The notes beneath the pieces are model-generated. The model saw nothing but the letters and a program-made list of their open reading frames with translations, ran no database searches and was not told the DNA's origin. From Natronococcus sp. A-GB1 (GTDB lineage Archaea; Halobacteriota; Halobacteria; Halobacteriales; Natrialbaceae), in NCBI RefSeq assembly GCF_029688845.1, contig NZ_JARUKW010000007.1, forward strand, positions 1 to 64,000: a stretch of DNA of 64,000 nt, in the 5' to 3' direction. Within the stretch, counting starts at the first letter, position 1, and each line of letters opens with the position of its first letter. Below, in pieces: positions 14,842 to 41,015 of the stretch. The position numbers and the translations under genes were made by a program.

Positions 14842-16032
14842 TCAGTCGTCCGCAGCCGTTTCGGCGTCGGTTCGCTCGAGTTCGCCGTCCTCGAGCAGTT
14901 CCTCGCGGTGTTCGTCGAGCAGTGGCGCCCGTCCACCGGGTTCGGGCGGGGTCTCGGTCATCTTGATCGGCGAGCCCGCGATCTCGACGGTTTCGTCGGA
15001 ACCGGGCTGTTCGACCGGCACGAGCATCTCCCGATCGCGGACGTGGGGATCCTCGAAGATCTCGTCGGTGCTCTGGACCGGCGCGACCGGAACCCGCCCC
15101 TCGAGGGTCTCGACGAGGTCGGCGGTTGCGAGACCGGCCGCCCAGTCGGCGATCTCCTCGCGAAGTTCCTCGCGGTGCTCGAGGCGGTCCGCGGCGGTGG
15201 GGTACTCCGCGGCGAGATCCTTCCGCCCCATCGCCTCGCAGACCTCGTTCCAGTGGTTCGTGCCGAAGGCAGCGATCACGGCGTGGCCGTCGCGAGTCTC
15301 GAAGGCGTCGTAGGGGAACAGCGTCGGGTGGGAGTTGCCACGCCTCGAGGGCGCCTCGCCGGTGTAGGAGTGCTGGTAGACTGCTCGCTCGGTCATGCTG
15401 AGCATCGCGTCGTACATCGCGGTGTCGACGTACTGGCCCTCGCCGGTCCGGTGGCGGTGGTTGACTGCGGCGAGGATGCCGATGCAGTTCAGCGTCGCGG
15501 TAAAGAGGTCGCCGATGCCGGGCCCGACCTTCGTCGGCGGACCCTCCTCCTGTCCGGTGATCTCCATGACCCCGCCCAGCGCCTGCGCGATGAGGTCGAA
15601 GGAGGGCTGACCCTGTCGGTGGGTCTCGCCCGTACGCGGATCGCCGAAACCTCTGATCGAGGAGTAGATCAGCTCCGGGTTGCGCTCTTTGAGCGTTTCG
15701 TACCCGAGGTCGTACTTCTCCATCGTCCCCGAGCGGTAGTTCTCGACGACGACGTCGGCCTCCTCGACCAACGAGAGGAAGTCCTCGCGATCGTCGGGGT
15801 CGTTGAAATCGAGCTCGAGGCTGCGCTTGCCGCGGTTGACGCTCTGGAAGTAACCGCCGTAGGCTTCCGCTTCCGCATCGTCGACGAACGGCGGGTTCGA
15901 TCTGATCAGGTCGCCGCCCGGGCGCTCGATCTTTACGACGTCGGCGCCCATATCCGCGAGCAACATCGTACAGTACGGGCCGGCCAGCACCTGCGTCAGA
16001 TCAATCACGCGCAGATTCGACAGTGCGCCCAT
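14842..16032 (-). CDS. mct: Family III CoA transferase, probable succinyl-CoA:mesaconate CoA-transferase
   Basis: A 396-residue CaiB/BaiF-type CoA transferase. It opens MGALSNLRVIDLTQVLAGPY, contains MGADVVKIERPGGD and VNRGKRSLELDFN, and has the catalytic aspartate region GPGIGDLFTATLN (Asp attacks the thioester). In the methylaspartate cycle such an enzyme moves CoA onto mesaconate before hydration. It is divergent from the glutamate mutase genes, with a shared 152-base promoter region, which supports this substrate. Family membership is certain; the substrate is inferred from the neighbours. The Met at 16032 is chosen because the conserved opening starts there. Confidence 0.88.
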   Translation of the reverse strand: MGALSNLRVIDLTQVLAGPYCTMLLADMGADVVKIERPGGDLIRSNPPFVDDAEAEAYGGYFQSVNRGKRSLELDFNDPDDREDFLSLVEEADVVVENYRSGTMEKYDLGYETLKERNPELIYSSIRGFGDPRTGETHRQGQPSFDLIAQALGGVMEITGQEEGPPTKVGPGIGDLFTATLNCIGILAAVNHRHRTGEGQYVDTAMYDAMLSMTERAVYQHSYTGEAPSRRGNSHPTLFPYDAFETRDGHAVIAAFGTNHWNEVCEAMGRKDLAAEYPTAADRLEHREELREEIADWAAGLATADLVETLEGRVPVAPVQSTDEIFEDPHVRDREMLVPVEQPGSDETVEIAGSPIKMTETPPEPGGRAPLLDEHREELLEDGELERTDAETAADD

Positions 16033-16152
16033 GAGAGCGAGTGACTGGGGACAGGCGCAAAAACCTTTGCAATAGATCATGAAGGTGTGGTTGTCTCTCA
16101 AGGGGGTGATGCTAGGCTGTATAAGGAGTATTATCATGATCAACCATTAACT

Positions 16153-16158
16153 TTATAC
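16153..16158 (+). promoter_or_regulatory. TATA-like box of the glutamate mutase operon
   Basis: TTATAC, within CTTTATACGG, lies about 28 bases before the ATG at 16185. This supports 16185, rather than the upstream in-frame ATG at 16170, as the start of a leaderless operon. Confidence 0.6.
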
Positions 16159-16184
16159 GGGTATTCCTCATGGTTCTGCACACG

Positions 16185-16625
16185 ATGTCCCGAACGGTCG
16201 TCCTCGGCGTGATCGGCTCCGACGCCCACGTCGTTGGCATCACGATCCTAGAGCAGGCCCTGAGTGCAGCTGGCTTCGACGTCGTCAACCTCGGCGTCCA
16301 GACCTCCCAAGAGGACTTTGCGGAGGCAGCGGTAGCCCACTCGGCGGAGGCGGTACTCGTCTCCTCGCTCTACGGTCACGCCGAGCAGGACTGCCAGGGG
16401 TTCCACGAGGTCCTCGCGGAGGCCGACGTCGACGCCCTCACCTACATCGGCGGCAACCTCGCCGTCGGGCAGGACGACTTCGATCAGACCCGCGCGACCT
16501 TTGAAGAGCTCGGGTTCGATCGGGTCTTCGACTCCGAGACCGACCCCGAGGAGGCCATCGCCGCCCTCGAGCGGGACCTCAACGTTACGACCACCGAGTC
16601 CGATCAGGTTACGGTCACCTCATAG
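16185..16625 (+). CDS. glmS: Methylaspartate mutase (glutamate mutase) S subunit
   Basis: The B12-binding small subunit of glutamate mutase, which interconverts L-glutamate and threo-3-methylaspartate. The 146-residue protein is one B12-binding Rossmann domain: base-off motif DxHxxG as D13-A-H15-V-V-G18, then SSLYGHAEQDC (the SxL element) and YIGGNLAVG (the GG element). It is the first gene of the cluster behind a TATA-like box; the catalytic E subunit follows 10 bases after the stop. Confidence 0.95.
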   Translation: MSRTVVLGVIGSDAHVVGITILEQALSAAGFDVVNLGVQTSQEDFAEAAVAHSAEAVLVSSLYGHAEQDCQGFHEVLAEADVDALTYIGGNLAVGQDDFDQTRATFEELGFDRVFDSETDPEEAIAALERDLNVTTTESDQVTVTS

Positions 16626-16635
16626 CCCGCCCTCG

Positions 16636-18087
16636 ATGATACGAGACGAACGCATTCCATCCGACGAGCTACGGCGCATCGACGACGAGATCCGGTCCGG
16701 CTGGTCCACTGGCGAGGACGTCGACTTCGAGGAGGCAATTGCCTACCACGAGTCGCTGCCGGCGAGCAAACGCTTCGCCGACGTCCTCGAGTCGGCCGAC
16801 GACCCCCTCCTGCAACCGCGCGCGGGAGTCCCGCGACTCGGCGATCAGATCGAGCTGCTCGAGTACCTCCATGGGGAGGGGAAAGCAGACCTCTTGCCGA
16901 CGACGATCGACTCCTACACGCGTGACAACGAGTACGGGAAGGCCCAGGAGGGTCTCGAGAAGGCCCGCGAGACCGGCGAGGACACCCTCAACGGCTTCCC
17001 CGCGGTCAACCACGGGATCGAGGGCTGTCGCGAGCTGATCGAGGCGATCGACGCCCCGATCGAGGTCCGCCACGGCACCCCCGACGCCCGTCTGCTGGCA
17101 GCGATCACCTTCGCCGGCGGCTTCCAGAGCTTCGAGGGGGGTCCGATCTCGTACAACATCCCCTATACCAAGCGCCACGGGCTCGAGGAGACCATCGAGA
17201 AGTGGCAGTTCGTGGATCGACTCGCGGGCGCGTACACCGAACGGGGCGTGCGGATCAACCGCGAGCCGTTCGGCCCACTGACGGGGACGCTCGTGCCTCC
17301 GTCGATCGCGATCGCGATCATGATCGTCGAGGGCCAGCTCGCCGCCACGCAGGGCGTGCGCTCGATCACGCTGGGCTACGGCCAGGTCGGTAACGTCGTC
17401 CAGGACGTCGCCGCCCTGAACGCCTTACAGAAGCTCGGCGACGAGTACCTCCCCGACGAGGTGTGCGTGACGACGGTCTTCCACGAGTGGATGGGCGGCT
17501 TCCCGCCCGACGAGGCCCGTGCCAACGGCGTCATCAGCCTCGGCGCGATGACCGCCGCCATCGCCCAGCCGGACAAGGTCATCACGAAGTCCCCCCAGGA
17601 GTTCCAGGGCGTCCCGACGAAGGAGGCAAACGCTTCCGGGCTCCGCACGACGCGACAGGTCATCGACATGGCGATCGAGCAGAACATCGATATCGACGGC
17701 ATCGCGGAGGAACAGGAGTTGATCGAGCGCGAGACCCGGTGTCTCATGGACACGATCTTCAGCCACGGCGACGGCGACGTCGTTCAGGGAACGATCAAGG
17801 CGTTCGACTCGGGAGCACTCGACGTCCCCTTCGCCCCGAGTGACAGCGCGAAGGGCGCGGTGTTGCCCGCACGCGACGACGACGGGCGGGTTCGGATCTT
17901 CGAGTGGGCCGACCTCGAGATGGACGACGACATCAAGGAGATCCACAAGGCCCGGCTCTCCCAGCGGGCCACCACCGAGGGTCGCGAGGAGTCGTTCCGT
18001 ATGGTCGCCGACGACGTCGACGCGATCAGCGACGGAAAGCTCATCGGCCGCCCCCAGGACAAGGGAGGTGTCGGCAGTGCGGATTGA
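16636..18087 (+). CDS. glmE: Methylaspartate mutase (glutamate mutase) E subunit
   Basis: The catalytic TIM-barrel subunit that binds glutamate and, with the S subunit and adenosylcobalamin, performs the carbon-skeleton rearrangement. The 483-residue protein shows conserved family stretches: RAGVPRLGDQIELL, GFPAVNHGIEGCRELI, IEVRHGTPDARLLA, SFEGGPISYNIPYTKR and QGVRSITLGYGQVGN. The start ATG at 16636 gives MIRDERIPSDELRRID. The end overlaps the ammonia-lyase start by 11 bases. Confidence 0.95.
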   Translation: MIRDERIPSDELRRIDDEIRSGWSTGEDVDFEEAIAYHESLPASKRFADVLESADDPLLQPRAGVPRLGDQIELLEYLHGEGKADLLPTTIDSYTRDNEYGKAQEGLEKARETGEDTLNGFPAVNHGIEGCRELIEAIDAPIEVRHGTPDARLLAAITFAGGFQSFEGGPISYNIPYTKRHGLEETIEKWQFVDRLAGAYTERGVRINREPFGPLTGTLVPPSIAIAIMIVEGQLAATQGVRSITLGYGQVGNVVQDVAALNALQKLGDEYLPDEVCVTTVFHEWMGGFPPDEARANGVISLGAMTAAIAQPDKVITKSPQEFQGVPTKEANASGLRTTRQVIDMAIEQNIDIDGIAEEQELIERETRCLMDTIFSHGDGDVVQGTIKAFDSGALDVPFAPSDSAKGAVLPARDDDGRVRIFEWADLEMDDDIKEIHKARLSQRATTEGREESFRMVADDVDAISDGKLIGRPQDKGGVGSAD

Positions 18088-19354
18088 GGCGATCCACGCC
18101 ACACCGGGCTACAGCGGGTTCTTCTTCGACGACCAGCGCGCGATCAAGGAGGGTGCTGTCCAGGAGGGGTTCACCTACGACGGCGACCCCGTCACCGACG
18201 GCTTCGACGAGATCCGCCAGGCCGGGGAGACACTGATCGTCGACGTCGAGCTCGCAGACGGCAGCGTCCACCGTGGCGACTGCGCGGCGGTCCAGTACTC
18301 CGGCGCGGGCGGGCGCGATCCGCTTTTTCGGGCCGCCGAGTATGCCCCGATCGTCGAGGGTCCCGTCGCCGAGGAACTCGTCGGTCGAGAGGCAAGCGAG
18401 TTCCTCGAGAACGCCGACCTGCTCGAGGACGGCGAGTTCGACGGGGATCGGCTCCACACGGCGATCCGCTACGGCGTCTCCCAGGCATTGCTGGCGGCGG
18501 CAGCCCACGACGCCGGAACCACGCGAACCGACGTCCTCGCCGATGAACTCGACACGGAGCCGGCGACCGAGCCCGTCCCCGTGTTCGGTCAGTCCGGCGA
18601 CGACCGGTACGTCAACACCGAGAAGATGTTCGTCAAAGGTGTCCCGGTTCTGCCACACGGTCTCATCAACAGCGTCGAGAAGATCGGCGAGGACGGCGAG
18701 ACCTTACTCGAGTACATCGAGTGGCTCGCCGAGCGCTCACAGGAACTCGGGCCAGAGGGGTACGATCCCCGGTTCCACATCGACGTTTACGGGATGATCG
18801 GGGAAATCTTCGGCCCCCCTTACGACCGCGACGAAGTCGTCGACTACTTCGGGGCGCTCGAGAACGCCGCGGCCCCGTACCCGATCCAGATCGAGGGACC
18901 GATGGACGTCGGCGACCGCGAAGCACAGATCGAGGCGATGGTCGAGCTCCGCGAGGGGCTCGCCGACGCCGGCGTCGGCGTCGACATCGTCGCCGACGAG
19001 TGGTGTAACACCTTCGAGGACGTGCGGGCGTTCGTCGATCGGGGCGCGGCCGACGTCGTCCAGATTAAAACCCCCGACCTCGGCGGGATCCACCGCAGCG
19101 GGCAGGCGGTCAGGTACTGCGAGGGGACCGACACCCGCGCCTACCTGGGCGGCACCTGCAACGAGACGGAAACGTCCGCGCGCGCCTGTGCACACGTCGC
19201 GCTCGCAACAGACGCCGCGCAGGTGCTCGCGAAACCCGGGATGGGGTTTGACGAGGGATACATGATCGTCGAGAACGAGATGCGTCGAACCGTCGCTAGG
19301 CGAACACGGGAACAGCGGCCGACGAGCGCAGACGAGGTGACTGCAGATGACTGA
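18077..19354 (+). CDS. mal: Methylaspartate ammonia-lyase
   Basis: An enolase-superfamily lyase that removes ammonia from 3-methylaspartate to give mesaconate. The 425-residue protein has all known catalytic positions in near-identical register to the clostridial enzyme: His194 (VLPHGLIN), metal ligands Asp236 (HIDVYGM), Glu273 (IQIEGPMD) and Asp307 (IVADEWC), and the catalytic Lys331 (QIKTPDLGG). The start is the GTG at 18077, preceded by GGGAGG, inside the end of glmE. The next gene overlaps its stop by eight bases. Confidence 0.95.
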   Translation: MRIEAIHATPGYSGFFFDDQRAIKEGAVQEGFTYDGDPVTDGFDEIRQAGETLIVDVELADGSVHRGDCAAVQYSGAGGRDPLFRAAEYAPIVEGPVAEELVGREASEFLENADLLEDGEFDGDRLHTAIRYGVSQALLAAAAHDAGTTRTDVLADELDTEPATEPVPVFGQSGDDRYVNTEKMFVKGVPVLPHGLINSVEKIGEDGETLLEYIEWLAERSQELGPEGYDPRFHIDVYGMIGEIFGPPYDRDEVVDYFGALENAAAPYPIQIEGPMDVGDREAQIEAMVELREGLADAGVGVDIVADEWCNTFEDVRAFVDRGAADVVQIKTPDLGGIHRSGQAVRYCEGTDTRAYLGGTCNETETSARACAHVALATDAAQVLAKPGMGFDEGYMIVENEMRRTVARRTREQRPTSADEVTADD

Positions 19355-20429
19355 TGAGATGACCGAGATCGATTGGACCGATGCAGAGACGTTCTCGCGC
19401 GCGCTCGAGCGCGCCGACACCCGCGAGAAGGGGAACTTCTTCGAGGCGTTCGCGGAGGGCGACCTGATCGAGCACGATCCCGGACTCACGCTCACGCGGT
19501 GGGGCAACGAGGCCTGGATGAGCCAGACGCTGAACCACGATCCCGCCTACTGGCGGACCGACGCCGCCCGGGATCGAGGGTTCGACGAGCCACCGATCCA
19601 CCCCGACTACCTCACCGCCGCGACGCTGGGGATCACCGTCGAAGACCTGAGCGAGAAGGGGGGCTACTTCCTCGGGCGCACCGACGTCCGGTTCCCCGGA
19701 ACCCCCGTCTACGCCGACACCGAACTGCGCGTCGAGAGCGAGGTCGTCTCGACGGCGACCTCGAGTTCCCGACCCGAGTACGGGATCGTCACCTGGCGTA
19801 CTCGAGGGATGGACGCAGCGACCGACGACGTGCTGTGTTCCTACGAGCGGACGAACATGATCCCGCGACGTGAGCCGGTGGCGACCGACGGCAGCGGCGG
19901 AAGCGCTGCGGCGGCCGAAGAACCCGACGAGCCCGTACTTCCGAGCGAGTTCGTTACTCCCGACAGCGGCGCCTTCGAGGATTTCCGCGAGGCCCTTGAG
20001 CGCGCCGACGACCGGGACGCCGCGGTCGCCTACCGCCACGAACGGGGTCGCACGCAGGACGACACGACCGTCGCCGGGCTGCCGCTGGCGACGCTGAACA
20101 CCGCCAAACAGCACCACAACGCCGACGTCATGGCCGACTCGCCGTCGGGCGACATCGTCACCTACGGCGACGTCACCCGATCGACGGCGCTGGGTCACGC
20201 CCGCTCCGACGAGGACACCTACCGAGAGGTCGGGTTCGACGACGAACAGTTCCACACGTTCGTCACGCCCGGCGATACCGTCTACGCGTTCACCCGCGTC
20301 CTCGAGGCCGAAGAGACGAGCTGCGACGAAGCGGGCACCGTCCGCTTCGAACACATCGCGTTCAACCAGGACGAGACACCGGTTTACTCCGGCACTCGTA
20401 CCGCGGAGATCCGCAAGCGCTCGAGCTGA
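19347..20429 (+). CDS. mch: Mesaconyl-CoA hydratase (MaoC-like)
   Basis: A 360-residue double hot-dog protein. The N-terminal half carries HDPGLTLTRWGNEAWMSQTL and FPGTPVYADTELRVES; the C-terminal half carries YGDVTRSTALGHARSDEDT and VRFEHIAFNQDETPVYSG. In the methylaspartate cycle this enzyme hydrates mesaconyl-CoA to beta-methylmalyl-CoA. Overlap with mal (the ATG lies before its TGA) shows coupling. A second Met four codons in is a possible alternative start. Substrate identity rests on the complete cluster. Confidence 0.92.
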   Translation: MTDEMTEIDWTDAETFSRALERADTREKGNFFEAFAEGDLIEHDPGLTLTRWGNEAWMSQTLNHDPAYWRTDAARDRGFDEPPIHPDYLTAATLGITVEDLSEKGGYFLGRTDVRFPGTPVYADTELRVESEVVSTATSSSRPEYGIVTWRTRGMDAATDDVLCSYERTNMIPRREPVATDGSGGSAAAAEEPDEPVLPSEFVTPDSGAFEDFREALERADDRDAAVAYRHERGRTQDDTTVAGLPLATLNTAKQHHNADVMADSPSGDIVTYGDVTRSTALGHARSDEDTYREVGFDDEQFHTFVTPGDTVYAFTRVLEAEETSCDEAGTVRFEHIAFNQDETPVYSGTRTAEIRKRSS

Positions 20430-20478
20430 ACCGCCCGCCGACCGCCCGTTTCCGACCACACCAGACACATCCACACGT

Positions 20479-21528
20479 ATGACCGACGATACCGAGATCC
20501 GACTCTGCCGCACGTTCCAGACCGCACCCGCCGCCGTCCCCAAGGAGGAGACGGCGAAGTACCTCGTCTCGGCGCTCGAGGCCGAGGGGTTCCAAGCGCC
20601 CGACTGGCTCGTCCCCGACCTCGAGGACGGCACCGCGCCCGACATGAAAGCCGAGGGGCTCGAGAACACGATCGATCGCGTCCCGGAGTACGAGTTCCCC
20701 GGCGAGATCCACCCACGTGTCGAGTGGGCCTACGACGACGACCGGTTCCGGGAGAAAGGTCGCGACCAGATCGACCGCCTGGTCGCCGAGATCGGCGACG
20801 AGATCGACGGCGTGGTCGTCCCGAAGGTCGGCCGCGTGGCGGACGTCGAGCGAGCTGCTGCCGCCGTTGCAGAGGCCGAGCGCGAGCACGGTTACCCCGA
20901 CGGCTCGATCGATCTTTCGATCATCATCGAATCGGGGCGGGCCCGCTCGGACCTCCGTGAGATCGCGACGTTCGGCGAGGATTCGCGACTCACCGCCTTG
21001 ATCTTCGGACCGGTCGACTACGCCGCCGAGCTGGGCGGTCGCGACCTCGGGGAGGGCATGCCCCGCTGGGACGGCCTGCTCGAGGCGCTGTCGAATGAGG
21101 CCAGCGCGGGCGGGCTGCTCGCGATCGGCGGGCCGTTCGACGACCTGTTCAAAGAGCGGGCGGGGCTGACCTACTACAACGCCGACGCGTACGCCGACCA
21201 GGTCGAACGCGAGGCCCAGGTCGGTCTCGACGGCTCCTGGTCGCTGTACCCCAAGCAGACGATCCAGGCGAACACGATCCACATGCCCACCCCCGAGGAG
21301 CTCGAGCGCGACGTCCACAAGATCGAGCGCTTCAACGAGGCCAAACGCGAGGGCACCGGCGCCGTGACGATCGACGGCCAGATGGTCGACGAAGCGACGT
21401 TCAAGAACTTCCGCAACACCGTTCGGACGGTCCGCGCGATCCACGACCGCAGACCCGACCAGACCGACAAGCGCTATGACGACGAGCTGTTGGGGCGGGC
21501 GCTCGAGCTCGAACTCTCCTATCGGTAG
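20479..21528 (+). CDS. CitE/HpcH-type lyase, probable beta-methylmalyl-CoA lyase
   Basis: A 349-residue TIM-barrel lyase of the HpcH/HpaI and citrate-lyase beta family. Metal- and CoA-binding motifs are visible: VPDLEDGTAPDMKAEG, VVVPKVGRVADVE, IIIESGRARSDL, LIFGPVDYAAELGG and WSLYPKQTIQAN. In the methylaspartate cycle it would split beta-methylmalyl-CoA into glyoxylate and propionyl-CoA, and it may also condense acetyl-CoA with glyoxylate. It follows mch by 49 bases on the same strand and ends the cluster. The exact substrate is inferred from context. Confidence 0.92.
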   Translation: MTDDTEIRLCRTFQTAPAAVPKEETAKYLVSALEAEGFQAPDWLVPDLEDGTAPDMKAEGLENTIDRVPEYEFPGEIHPRVEWAYDDDRFREKGRDQIDRLVAEIGDEIDGVVVPKVGRVADVERAAAAVAEAEREHGYPDGSIDLSIIIESGRARSDLREIATFGEDSRLTALIFGPVDYAAELGGRDLGEGMPRWDGLLEALSNEASAGGLLAIGGPFDDLFKERAGLTYYNADAYADQVEREAQVGLDGSWSLYPKQTIQANTIHMPTPEELERDVHKIERFNEAKREGTGAVTIDGQMVDEATFKNFRNTVRTVRAIHDRRPDQTDKRYDDELLGRALELELSYR

Positions 21529-22292: not shown

Positions 22293-22361
22293 GTCGGACG
22301 ACACATCCGATCCGTCCATACCGGCGTCCTCGCTTCGTTCGTCGTCGATCGCAGGGAAAGA

Positions 22362-22624
22362 CGGTGGGGATGGGATTCGAACTACGCGAGGACGGTCCCG
22401 CTCGCTCACTCCGTTCGCTGTGCGGGCTGCGTCTTCTCTCGTTCCAACCCATCGTCCACGCTTTGCTCCTCACGTATTGTTCGTCGTAAAAGCGGTGGGG
22501 ATGGGATTTGAACCACGGTCGTTCCGCTCGCCGTGCTCGCTCCACTCCCTGATTCAAATCCCACCGTTTCGTTTTTCGGCTCACGTGCTCCTCGCGAGGC
22601 TCGTCGCAGTTGTTCGCCGAAAAA
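22362..22624. repeat. Two degenerate tandem copies of the tRNA-Ser 3' end
   Basis: The sequence CGGTGGGGATGGGATTTGAAC, which is the discriminator, acceptor 3' strand and T-arm of the tRNA-Ser gene at 22625, occurs at 22362 (one mismatch) and 22493 before the intact gene, at spacings of 131 and 132 bases. Each copy is followed by unrelated CGCTCGCT-type sequence rather than the rest of a tRNA. The second copy is also met by an inverted TTCAAATCCCACCG at 22553-22566, making a potential stem with 11-base arms. Such 3'-end copies can be left by integration of elements at tRNA genes. Confidence 0.75.
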
Positions 22625-22708
22625 CGGTGGGGATGGGATTTGAACCCATGAGGCTTGACAGCCACCTGCTCTCAAGGCAGGCGCGTTAGGCCGCTCTGCC
22701 ACCCCACC
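22625..22708 (-). tRNA. tRNA-Ser (anticodon TGA)
   Basis: The minus strand forms an 84-base tRNA with acceptor stem GGTGGGG/CCCCACC, D arm beginning GCAGAG, anticodon arm CCTGC-CTTGAGA-GCAGG, a long variable arm (GGCT-GTCA-AGCC) typical of serine tRNAs, T arm ATGGG-TTCAAAT-CCCAT and G discriminator. Anticodon TGA reads UCA codons. CCA is not encoded. Its 3' end is duplicated twice immediately beyond it. Confidence 0.95.
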
Positions 22709-22749
22709 TCACCTCTACGTTCTCCACCCGTTCAAAAAGGGTTATCGGT

Positions 22750-23487
22750 CTACTCGCGCTCGAGGGACTCACCTTCCCCGACTCCCACTCCGATCTCGTC
22801 GGCGATCGCCGTCGTCGTCGCTCCCTGGGAGCGGTCGGCAACCGCTCGAGCCCGGCCGCCCGCGATCGTCGCACAGAGGCCGGATTCGGTCGCGATCGTC
22901 GGCAGCATCGGGGCGAACCCGACGCCGAGTCCGGCGTCGTCGGCCCGCTCGGCGAGCGTCGCCAGTTCGGGTACTGCGTCGGCATCTGTGAAGTCGATCG
23001 GCTCGCCGAATCCGGCGAAGTACGTTCGCCCGCCCGAGGAGGGACCGAGGACGACGTCGTGGCGCCGCAGCGACATCGCCGCGCCGTCGATCTCGGTGCG
23101 GCCGATCAGCGGCGCCGTCGGCTCGAGGACGCCGACGCTGGTGGCGTCTTCCTGCTCGAGCAGGTGGGTCACCGTGTTCCCGATCCGCGCCGAGCGGGTC
23201 GAGCCGACCTGGCGTTCGAACCGGACGTCCTCGAGGTCGCCCAGCGCAGCGGTAGCAAGCTCTCGGATCTCCGCCTTCGGCTCTCCCGAGAACGAGTCGG
23301 GGAGGGTCTCCTCGTCGCGGTAGTTCACGAGCAGGTCGCCGCCGCTCGCCGCGACCGAGCGGAGGACGTCGACGACGGAAGCCTCGTAGAGCTCGACGGC
23401 CTCTGCCTCGGTCAGCACCGTTCGGTCGGCGAGCGACGACAGCACGAGTCCCTCGCGGGACGGGGAGACGGGGACGACGACGATCAT
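22750..23487 (-). CDS. GT-A-fold nucleotidyl/glycosyltransferase-like protein (DUF2064-like)
   Basis: A 245-residue protein. The start MIVVVPVSPSREGLVLSSLA and the segment VVLGPSSGGRTYFAGFGEP (residues about 145-165) resemble the nucleotide-sugar-transferase-like fold of DUF2064/CofC relatives, in which the second motif normally reads VLGPxxDGG; here the Asp is missing, so activity may be altered. A helical region with DVLRSVAASGGDLLVNY follows the first strand. The C-terminal 60 residues are acidic. Family placement is by motif only. It ends 42 bases from tRNA-Ser. Confidence 0.65.
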   Translation of the reverse strand: MIVVVPVSPSREGLVLSSLADRTVLTEAEAVELYEASVVDVLRSVAASGGDLLVNYRDEETLPDSFSGEPKAEIRELATAALGDLEDVRFERQVGSTRSARIGNTVTHLLEQEDATSVGVLEPTAPLIGRTEIDGAAMSLRRHDVVLGPSSGGRTYFAGFGEPIDFTDADAVPELATLAERADDAGLGVGFAPMLPTIATESGLCATIAGGRARAVADRSQGATTTAIADEIGVGVGEGESLERE

Positions 23488-39308: not shown

Positions 39309-41015
39309 TCACAGGAGGTATCGCTGGGCGAGGGGAAGTTCGTCGGCGGGGTCGCAGGTGACGTGCTCGCCGTCGACGGCCACTTCGAAGGTCTGTGCGT
39401 CGATCTCGATATCGTCCGGACAGTGGTCGTTGTGCAGCATGTCGGACTTGCCGACCGATCGAGTGTCTCGAACCGGCCGGACCGGCGTCTTCAGGTCGTA
39501 GGCGTCGCCGACCTCGTTCTCGTAGGCAGCGTTGCTCACGAACGAGATCGTGAGACCCTGTTTTGCCCGTCCCTGTGCGCCGGCGCGCTCGCGACCGAGG
39601 ATCGGCTCGCAGGTCATCAGCGAGCCGTTGGCCTCGCCCATCTGGGACCAGACGGGGAACCCGCCCTTGATGACGGCCTTCGGCTTGACGCCGAAGAACG
39701 CGGGGTCCCACAGCGCGATATCTGCGAGCTTGCCCGGCTCGAGCGAGCCGACGTAGTCGTCGATCCCCGACGTGATCGCGGGGTTGATCGTGTACTTCGC
39801 GACGTAGCGCTCGATGCGGGCGTTGTCCGCGTCGGTTCCCTCGTCGGCCTCGAGCGGGCCGCGCTGGGCCTTCATCTTGTGGGCCGTCTGCCAGGTGCGG
39901 GAGACGAGTTCGGCCATCCGTCCCATCGCCTGCGAGTCCGTCGTCATCATCGAGATGGCGCCCGTATCGTGGAGGACGTCCTCCGCGGCGATCGTCTCCG
40001 CGCGGATGCGCGATTCGGCGAAGGCGACGTCCTCGGGGACGTCCGGGTTGAGGTGGTGACAGACCATCACCATGTCCAGGTGCTCGTCGAACGTGTTCTC
40101 CGTGTAGGGCATCGACGGGTTCGTCGACGAGGGGAGCATGTGCTCGAAGCCGATCAGCTCGAGGACGTCCGGCGCGTGGCCGCCGCCGGCGCCCTCGATG
40201 TGGAAGGTGTGGATCGTCCGGCCGTCGATGGCGTCGAACGTGTCCTCGACGAACCCCGACTCGTTCAGGGTGTCGGTGTGGATACAGACCTGCACGTCCA
40301 TCTCGTCGGCGACGTCGAGGCAGGTATCGATCGCCGCGGGCGTCGAGCCCCAGTCCTCGTGGAGCTTCATCCCGCAGGCGCCCGCTTCGATCTGCTCGCG
40401 GAGGCCCTCCGGTTCGCTGGCGTTTCCCTTCCCGTAGAAGCCGACGTTGACCGGCCAGTCTTCCGCGGCCTGGAGGAATCGCGTGATACTCTCGGGCCCA
40501 GGGGTACAGGTCGTCGCGCCGCCGCCGAAGCCGCCGCCGAGCATCGTCGTGACCCCCGCACCCAGGGCGTGATCGACCAGCTGCGGGCTGTTGAAGTGGA
40601 CGTGTGCGTCGATCGCGCCGGCCGTCGCGATCAGCCCGTCGGCGGGGATCGTGTCCGTGTTCGGGCCGATCACCATGTCGACACCGTCCATTGTGTCGGG
40701 GTTACCCGCCTTCCCGACGCCGACGATCCGCCCGTTCCGAACGCCGATATCGCCCTTACAGACGCCCAACACGGGGTCGACGATTACGACGTTCGTAAAG
40801 GCCCAGTCGAGGGCGCCTTCGGCCTGTGTCGTCCCCGACTGCATCCCCATCCCGTCGCGCATCGTCTTCCCGCCCCCGAAGACGGCTTCCTCGCCGGGCG
40901 TTCCGTAGTCGGTCTCGATCCTCGCCAGCAGGTTCGTATCGCCCAGCCGGACGCGATCGCCCTCGGTCGCGCCGAACAGGTCCGTGTACTCGCGCCGCGA
41001 GAGTTCGCGGCTCAT
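39309..41015 (-). CDS. ureC: Urease subunit alpha (catalytic)
   Basis: The 568-residue catalytic subunit that hydrolyses urea to ammonia and carbamate. All active-site residues are present: His138 and His140 (DAHVHFNSP), the lysine to be carbamylated Lys217 ([12 protein letters not shown]), His246 (CIHTDTLNE), His272 ([11 protein letters not shown]), His320 (VCHHLNPD) and Asp360 ([11 protein letters not shown]). It starts with an ATGA overlap on ureB. The order ureB-C-A-G-D-E-F is the one seen in halophilic archaea. Confidence 0.98.

Follow-up and report, generated by a model that had tools for sequence, protein, structure and literature searches.

Hairpin units ending in copies of the tRNA 3′ end form an array behind tRNA-Ser(UGA) in Natronococcus sp. 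A-GB1 and recur behind many tRNA genes of Halobacteria

The 3′ flanks of tRNA genes are the entry site of many integrative elements in archaeal genomes, and copies of a tRNA end beside its own gene are usually taken as scars of such elements. In the stretch of DNA analysed here (the window: 64,000 nucleotides, positions 1–64,000 of contig NZ_JARUKW010000007.1 of Natronococcus sp. A-GB1), the 3′ end of a tRNA-Ser gene is repeated 132 and 263 bases downstream of its place in the tRNA. A first-pass annotation had read this as the pattern left by repeated integration or excision at a tRNA 3′ end, with only one intact gene, one inverted partial copy and no integrase gene nearby. This raises the question of what lies between the copies and how it came to be there. 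Comparisons were made between Natronococcus sp. A-GB1 (G000), a relative of the same genus (G003) and a genome from another family (G060).

The copies are spaced 132 and 131 bases, as the annotation had reported; one is exact and the other carries one mismatch, and both ARAGORN and Rfam found a single intact tRNA at the locus. Each of the two steps was found to contain one inverted T-arm copy and two hairpins. The inverted copy at 22553–22563 had been noticed before, but a second, more degraded one at 22441–22453 had been overlooked. The parts of the array, from the tRNA outwards, are as follows (window coordinates):

22625–22708, minus strand: intact tRNA-Ser(UGA) gene (ARAGORN; Rfam RF00005, 52.3 bits)
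22625–22645, minus strand: S1, the last 21 nt of tRNA-Ser(UGA), template of the copies
22571–22624, minus strand: H1 hairpin of unit 1 (fold; pairing in 14 Ser(tga) H1 sequences)
22553–22563, minus strand: S′ of unit 1, inverted copy of the T-loop and inner T-stem, TGGGATTTGAA (inverted pair)
22514–22552, minus strand: H2 hairpin of unit 1, class A, TCAGGGAGTGG...CGACCGTG
22493–22513, minus strand: S2, exact direct copy of tRNA positions 53–73
22454–22492, minus strand: H1 hairpin of unit 2, CTTTTACGACGAACAATACGTGAGGAGCAAAGC, with a short spacer (kept in G003)
22441–22453, minus strand: S′ of unit 2, degraded inverted T-arm copy, GATGGGTTGGAAC
22383–22440, minus strand: H2 hairpin of unit 2, class C, AGAAGACGCAGC...GACCGTC
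22362–22382, minus strand: S3, second direct copy, one mismatch compared to the tRNA

The H1 hairpin of unit 1 begins with a T-run directly 3′ of the discriminator base, and S′ of unit 2 reads GATGGGTTTGAAC in G003. A search of the whole 4.5-Mb genome with the 21-nt tRNA-Ser 3′ end (GTTCAAATCCCATCCCCACCG on the minus strand), allowing up to three mismatches, gave three more matches beyond the array copies, each with three mismatches and located on another contig; the backwards control of the same 21 nt gave none. The locus is flanked on one side by a 245-aa ORF without a Pfam match and on the other by a methylaspartate-pathway gene cluster. According to Pfam this cluster (window 14842–21528, directly upstream of the array region) contains genes for a CoA transferase III, glutamate mutase subunits, methylaspartate ammonia-lyase, mesaconyl-CoA hydratase and a citrate-lyase-like protein. 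Elsewhere in the window, positions 40578–40841 on the plus strand matched the Rfam family 5_ureB_sRNA (RF02514, 42.9 bits; cut-off 40), a family unexpected in a haloarchaeon.

The array behind tRNA-Ser is one case of a class-wide pattern, and the reading of it as a local scar is not right. When the last 24 nt of each tRNA gene of G000 were used as query against its own flanks, self-copies were found downstream and oriented like the tRNA, usually beginning 66–131 nt past it, and a few were inverted; upstream matches occurred only beside adjacent duplicate tRNAs and their units, and reversed-sequence controls gave no matches. Self-copies were then scored in all three genomes as local alignments with a score of at least 14 within 300 nt, omitting tRNAs with less than 250 nt downstream or a predicted intron (45 reduced to 44 in G000, 46 to 44 in G003 and 44 to 39 in G060). 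A downstream self-copy was present at 26/44 tRNAs in G000, 28/44 in G003 and 22/39 in G060, compared to one, one and no upstream self-copies, respectively. The ends of other tRNAs matched the same flanks in 84/1892, 90/1892 and 72/1482 comparisons, related tRNAs included. The copies are specific to their own tRNA, which was the best query in 25 of 26, 27 of 28 and 21 of 22 cases. Chance origin is excluded by the backwards or reversed controls and the controls with other tRNAs. Counting the three genomes together, units occur behind 33 different isoacceptors, and a unit is also present at the intron-containing tRNA-Trp of G000, which stands outside the 44.

Outside the class, none of 83 tRNAs from genomes of the same phylum, mostly high-scoring tRNAs picked from a listing rather than whole tRNA sets, had a self-copy unit, whereas one of three halobacterial tRNAs did in the same test. 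A survey of 84,980 species genomes with one junction pattern (H2 end plus T-loop) gave at least 118 stretches, of which 80 were listed. Among the stretches listed, 78/80 belong to Halobacteria by title, and a tRNA lies less than 450 nt upstream in 75 of 84 matches, of which one (L268, in a tRNA cluster of an Acidobacteriota genome) is due to chance. For 72 of these 75, again among the stretches listed, the upstream stretch matched the 22-nt copy with at most five mismatches. The nine other matches comprise locus or contig edges (L199, L208, L212, L218, and L252), larger distances (L223 and L262), a displaced tRNA half (L259) and a non-halobacterial match (L236). At tRNA-Ser(tga), 26 of the best 30 loci of the family hold one to three units and four hold none; these loci scored highest against a query containing units and do not represent all genomes of the family, so filled sites are favoured.

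All units have the same order: the H1 hairpin, S′ (inverted T-loop and T-stem), the H2 hairpin and S (direct copy of tRNA positions 53–73). From four sources 184 units were extracted; removal of tRNA-Asp units and of units shorter than 75 or longer than 210 nt left 172, and removal of 15 without a T-loop anchor left 157 with a recognisable inverted T-loop. The three genomes contributed 80 raw units of 56–243 nt, 77 of them 56–205 nt long, and the three longest (237–243 nt) each span a second tRNA gene. Sixty-nine units from the three genomes were kept (75–210 nt allowed), with a range of 89–205 nt and a median of 132 nt; the direct copy is exact in 27 of them. Within these 69 units, agreement of the copy with the tRNA to the left of position 53 was no better than for random pairs. 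To the right of position 73, agreement was somewhat above the comparison (0.52, 0.45, and 0.41 versus 0.46, 0.33, and 0.31). S′ is specific to its own tRNA mainly over the T-stem (0.78, 0.63, and 0.49 versus 0.65, 0.39, and 0.22) and then falls to near chance. Counts for each position spoke against S′ being an inverted version of the entire tRNA end, as only the T-loop and inner T-stem are own-specific and the discriminator end is slightly above chance. The longest open frame in the interiors of the 69 units, which measure up to 184 nt, has 61 codons.

In five of the 69 units the direct copy is longer by a single base, which always sits at one position of the T-loop (TTCA-N-AATC), namely at Lys(ttt), Phe and Pro(tgg) in G000 and at Lys(ctt) and Arg(ccg) in G003; this base may mark a junction point. 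Besides ordinary units, tRNA-Pro(ggg) (L077/L134) has H2-like hairpins in which the copy is limited to the final 6–7 nt of the tRNA (GTCCCA), and G003 exceeds G000 by one such hairpin.

The H2 hairpins fall into a few classes that are common to many tRNAs. Since 80 loci were fetched with the class A pattern, class A is over-counted in the set of 157, and the unbiased counts are those of the three whole genomes: 23 of class C, 10 of class E, nine of class B, eight of class A and four of class D, with 15 of the 69 fitting none of the five. Genome-wide matches to the H2 patterns in the 4.5-Mb genome lay behind tRNAs in 8/8 (class A), 5/5 (class B) and 3/3 (class C) cases, all 16 of them on the same strand and no more than 400 nt downstream of the tRNA gene, and the same three patterns searched backwards gave no genome-wide match.

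The H1 hairpin was studied in an alignment of 14 of 16 listed Ser(tga) H1 sequences; the long-H1 type was chosen by eye, L007 and L010 were left out for their differing H1, and other fetched Ser(tga) loci were not used. Among its 15 pairs, 95.0% of the cells are paired, and eight pairs are changed on both sides with pairing kept. Shuffled alignments reached values as high in 0/500 cases on four of five measures, the share of paired cells and the two-sided pairs among them, and in 73/500 on the fifth (further pair types), and sliding the partners by one to three columns gave at most three two-sided pairs. H1 is thus kept as a hairpin, through selection or through hairpin-templated repair. The units are also asymmetric between strands. 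The motif GCGNAGC, which we take to form an unusually stable DNA mini-hairpin, was present on the tRNA-sense strand of 41/69 units and on the other strand of 3/69, and single-stranded DNA folding was better for the sense strand in 115/157 units.

Many tRNA flanks are near-identical between G000 and G003, and there the presence or absence of a unit is precise. At Ile and Lys(ttt) a unit in G000 faces an exact empty site in G003, and at Thr(tgt) and Pro(ggg) a unit in G003 faces an exact empty site in G000. No such reading is possible at Ala(cgc), Glu(ctc), Arg(ccg) and Val(cac), where the flanks differ, at Arg(cct), which has a more complex array, or at Arg(tcg), which has a larger element. At three loci an extra unit occupies the position nearest the tRNA: at Val(tac), one unit is common to both genomes and G000 has a further one between it and the tRNA, and at two Ser(tga) loci (L020 and L026) the family's long-H1 unit is separated from the tRNA by a different unit. 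Outer units are not clearly more decayed in S2 (mean mismatches of 1.32 at rank 0, n = 130, and 1.46 at rank 1, n = 26), and age polarity rests on these three loci. Besides, H2 is exchanged. At Ser(tga) a class A hairpin in G000 corresponds to a class B hairpin in G003, the sequence to either side of it being near-identical, and Arg(tct) shows a similar class swap between the two genomes together with some change in H1.

A different kind of breakpoint was observed at Val(gac) and Leu(tag) (L048/L115 and L078/L135), where G000 and G003 agree up to S′ and then differ in H2, S2 and the whole flank; this is perhaps a larger insertion that used S′.

As for integrases, the 214-kb contig of the window contains no match to Phage_integrase (PF00589), in line with the absence reported by the annotation, and all 13 matches in G000 are on other contigs. 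One of them lies about 550 nt past tRNA-Arg(tcg) (contig C57, near 187150); at 25.8 bits it needs its neighbours to pass the cut-off. What is presumably the opposite end of the element lies on contig C10 (L386 1735–2754) and encodes a 339-aa tyrosine recombinase; that the two ends belong to one element is probable from the draft assembly. At the C10 end the repeated part of tRNA-Arg(tcg) is limited to roughly its final 13 nt; beyond this repeat come a complete hairpin unit homologous to that of G003 at tRNA-Arg(tcg) and then the chromosomal gene found after this tRNA in G003. The repeat of about 13 nt and the complete unit outside the element indicate that integrase element and unit are independent here and have different limits. 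The first-pass reading stands insofar as DNA flanked by the copies at tRNA 3′ ends is either there or missing as a precise unit, as seen at other tRNAs. Repeated integration or excision of ordinary integrase elements at the tRNA-Ser locus is not supported: the Arg(tcg) element spares the hairpin unit, and self-copies are widespread in the genome and occur in relatives without a large insertion, which largely goes against that part of the reading.

Two other origins were considered and dropped. A viral origin was rejected as 16 IMG/VR contigs with two junction patterns had neither a tRNA nor a close copy upstream and were taken as chance matches. Integron-like gene cassettes had been suggested by a two-gene stretch at L259 and were dropped when none of the best 30 of more than 30 homologues of its PemK-like gene, inspected with 1.5 kb on each side, was found in a unit. 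L259 (3026–4278) has a tRNA-Gly(TCC) 3′ half whose first bases lie near the anticodon loop. A unit comes next, followed by a stretch of 1141 nt that ends in S′-H2-S and contains two ORFs, one MarR-like and one PemK-like, the PemK-like match falling slightly short of the Pfam cut-off. L259 was not retained as a long element; the region instead holds a displaced tRNA-Gly 3′ half with its array.

Compared to known systems, the closest layout was found in E. coli, where the tRNA end behind tyrV recurs at 178, 356 and 534 nt with five mismatches of 24, the tyrT-tyrV unit contains an inverted T-stem copy (GGGGAAGGAT), and Rfam calls four RtT RNAs (RF00391; gene rttR), RtT being set free as a stable RNA when the tRNA precursor is processed. 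Both systems have tandem units behind a tRNA gene, each ending in its 3′ end and with an inverted T-stem copy inside. In E. coli, however, for which one locus of one genome was checked, the copy includes CCA and the unit is an annotated small RNA, whereas the archaeal units lie behind many tRNAs, differ among themselves and exchange H2. Window positions 22300–22760 gave no match to RF00391 (cmscan, E up to 5); the two share a layout and belong to different sequence families. Tyrosine-recombinase elements at tRNA genes (SNJ2, pNOB8, SSV and others) are similar in that a tRNA 3′ copy bounds the insert, the tRNA is restored and exact empty sites exist. The archaeal units differ from them in having no integrase, no cargo, a length of about 90–205 nt and hairpin modules, and the att limits of the one element examined, at Arg(tcg), differ as well (about 13 nt versus 21 nt). 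Integron attC cassettes resemble the units in that a variable hairpin tip stands between sites in inverted and direct orientation, here the T-loop sequences, and in apparent entry at one fixed end; in the units, however, there is no general gene cargo (the single two-gene stretch at L259 apart) and the site is a tRNA. A possible link of REP elements to tRNA genes found no confirmation in our literature searches. REP/BIME/REPIN sequences and PATEs (IS200/IS605-like) are likewise short, strand-asymmetric, non-coding hairpins that vary between relatives, but the units are not dispersed as REP/REPIN sequences are, three H2 classes lying behind tRNAs in 16/16 cases. PATEs are listed as making no target duplication (PMC3119063), whereas 21-nt direct copies flank the units. 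No description of these archaeal units was found in the literature within reach of the search, which left out most subscription journals.

The explanation that we favour, with confidence just short of even, is a tRNA-anchored, non-autonomous modular unit that is inserted and lost site-specifically and of which two lie behind tRNA-Ser. A single unit would enter at the tRNA end, the tRNA keeping an intact 3′ end and a copy being left on the far side. Older units would be displaced outward by new entries, units would also be lost, and H2 can be replaced on its own by one of the few shared classes, between its two flanking T-loop sequences. A tyrosine recombinase or an HUH-type transposase acting in trans is a candidate agent. 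We infer that gain occurs besides loss and that entry is driven by an enzyme; the folded tRNA-sense strand, for which strand-biased folding is what was computed, would be the substrate. Presence and absence could also reflect loss alone, by recombination between direct copies, and it counts against the unit model that neither an enzyme nor a circular form nor a transposition event was observed and that it leaves unexplained how tRNA-specific S and S′ are made jointly with shared H1 and H2. An unlikely reading goes to an integron-like, gene-free cassette system in Halobacteria, in which folded single-stranded units would dock at the T-loop, nearly universal in tRNA genes, enter behind whichever tRNA, restore its 3′ end and pass hairpin tips from one locus to another; if true, an integron-like hairpin-cassette process would have gone unnoticed across a whole archaeal class. 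The main rival to the modular unit is a functional structure of the host acting in cis, in transcription end, RNase Z processing of the 3′ trailer, insulation of the tRNA gene or as an RttR-like small RNA, with arrays that merely rearrange via their repeats. We consider this somewhat unlikely. It is consistent with the start of H1 at the discriminator and its T-run here, with pairing kept through two-sided change in 8/15 pairs, with the 26 of the best 30 Ser(tga) loci that hold units (a biased sample), with the 16/16 matches of three H2 patterns behind tRNAs, and with the like layout of the annotated E. coli small RNA. Yet about 40% of the tested tRNAs have no unit, the set varies between G000 and G003 and more so in G060, and the isoacceptors with a unit in one or more of these genomes number 33. 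The wholesale swap of H2 between close relatives also speaks against host function, and paired change can result from hairpin-templated repair as well. Moreover, T-runs end transcripts in archaea, so that the one in H1 would end them before S′.

The units could instead have been born in replication, template switching at palindromes of the T-arm and flank producing the S-S′-S series and H2 being swapped through the near-universal T-loop, with neither a mobile element nor a host function. The order S, inverted S′, S, the T-loop sequence on both sides of H2 and the GC-rich quasi-palindromes throughout agree with such a process; the abrupt ends of the copies at positions 53 and 73 in different isoacceptors, the confinement of H2 class matches to tRNA flanks and the 0/83 tRNAs in other lineages of the phylum call for more than an ordinary replication error, and we regard it as distinctly unlikely. 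Classical att scars, left by integrase-bearing elements that entered at the T-loop or 3′ end and were later deleted, appear very improbable. The T stem-loop and the 3′ end are among the known integrase target regions (PMC8371274), and the intact tRNA with copies downstream agrees with such scars, but 77/80 raw units measure only 56–205 nt, and the 69 units retained have hairpin modules in common and no open frame above 61 codons. The Arg(tcg) integrase element, the one examined, repeats about 13 nt, leaves the unit whole and has no att junction at exactly position 53 plus H2, and the 16 viral contigs with junction patterns have no tRNA or close upstream copy.

In the three halobacterial genomes, the self-copies at most tRNAs have a cause other than scars of integrative elements: they belong to a modular repeat, which one close relative may have and another lack, or have with a different hairpin tip. 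Prediction of att sites and annotation of tRNA fragments in Halobacteria should allow for this repeat. It also bears on a long-standing puzzle, that of the tyrT repeats in E. coli, and whether such units are mobile, structural or regulatory is testable in tractable haloarchaea.
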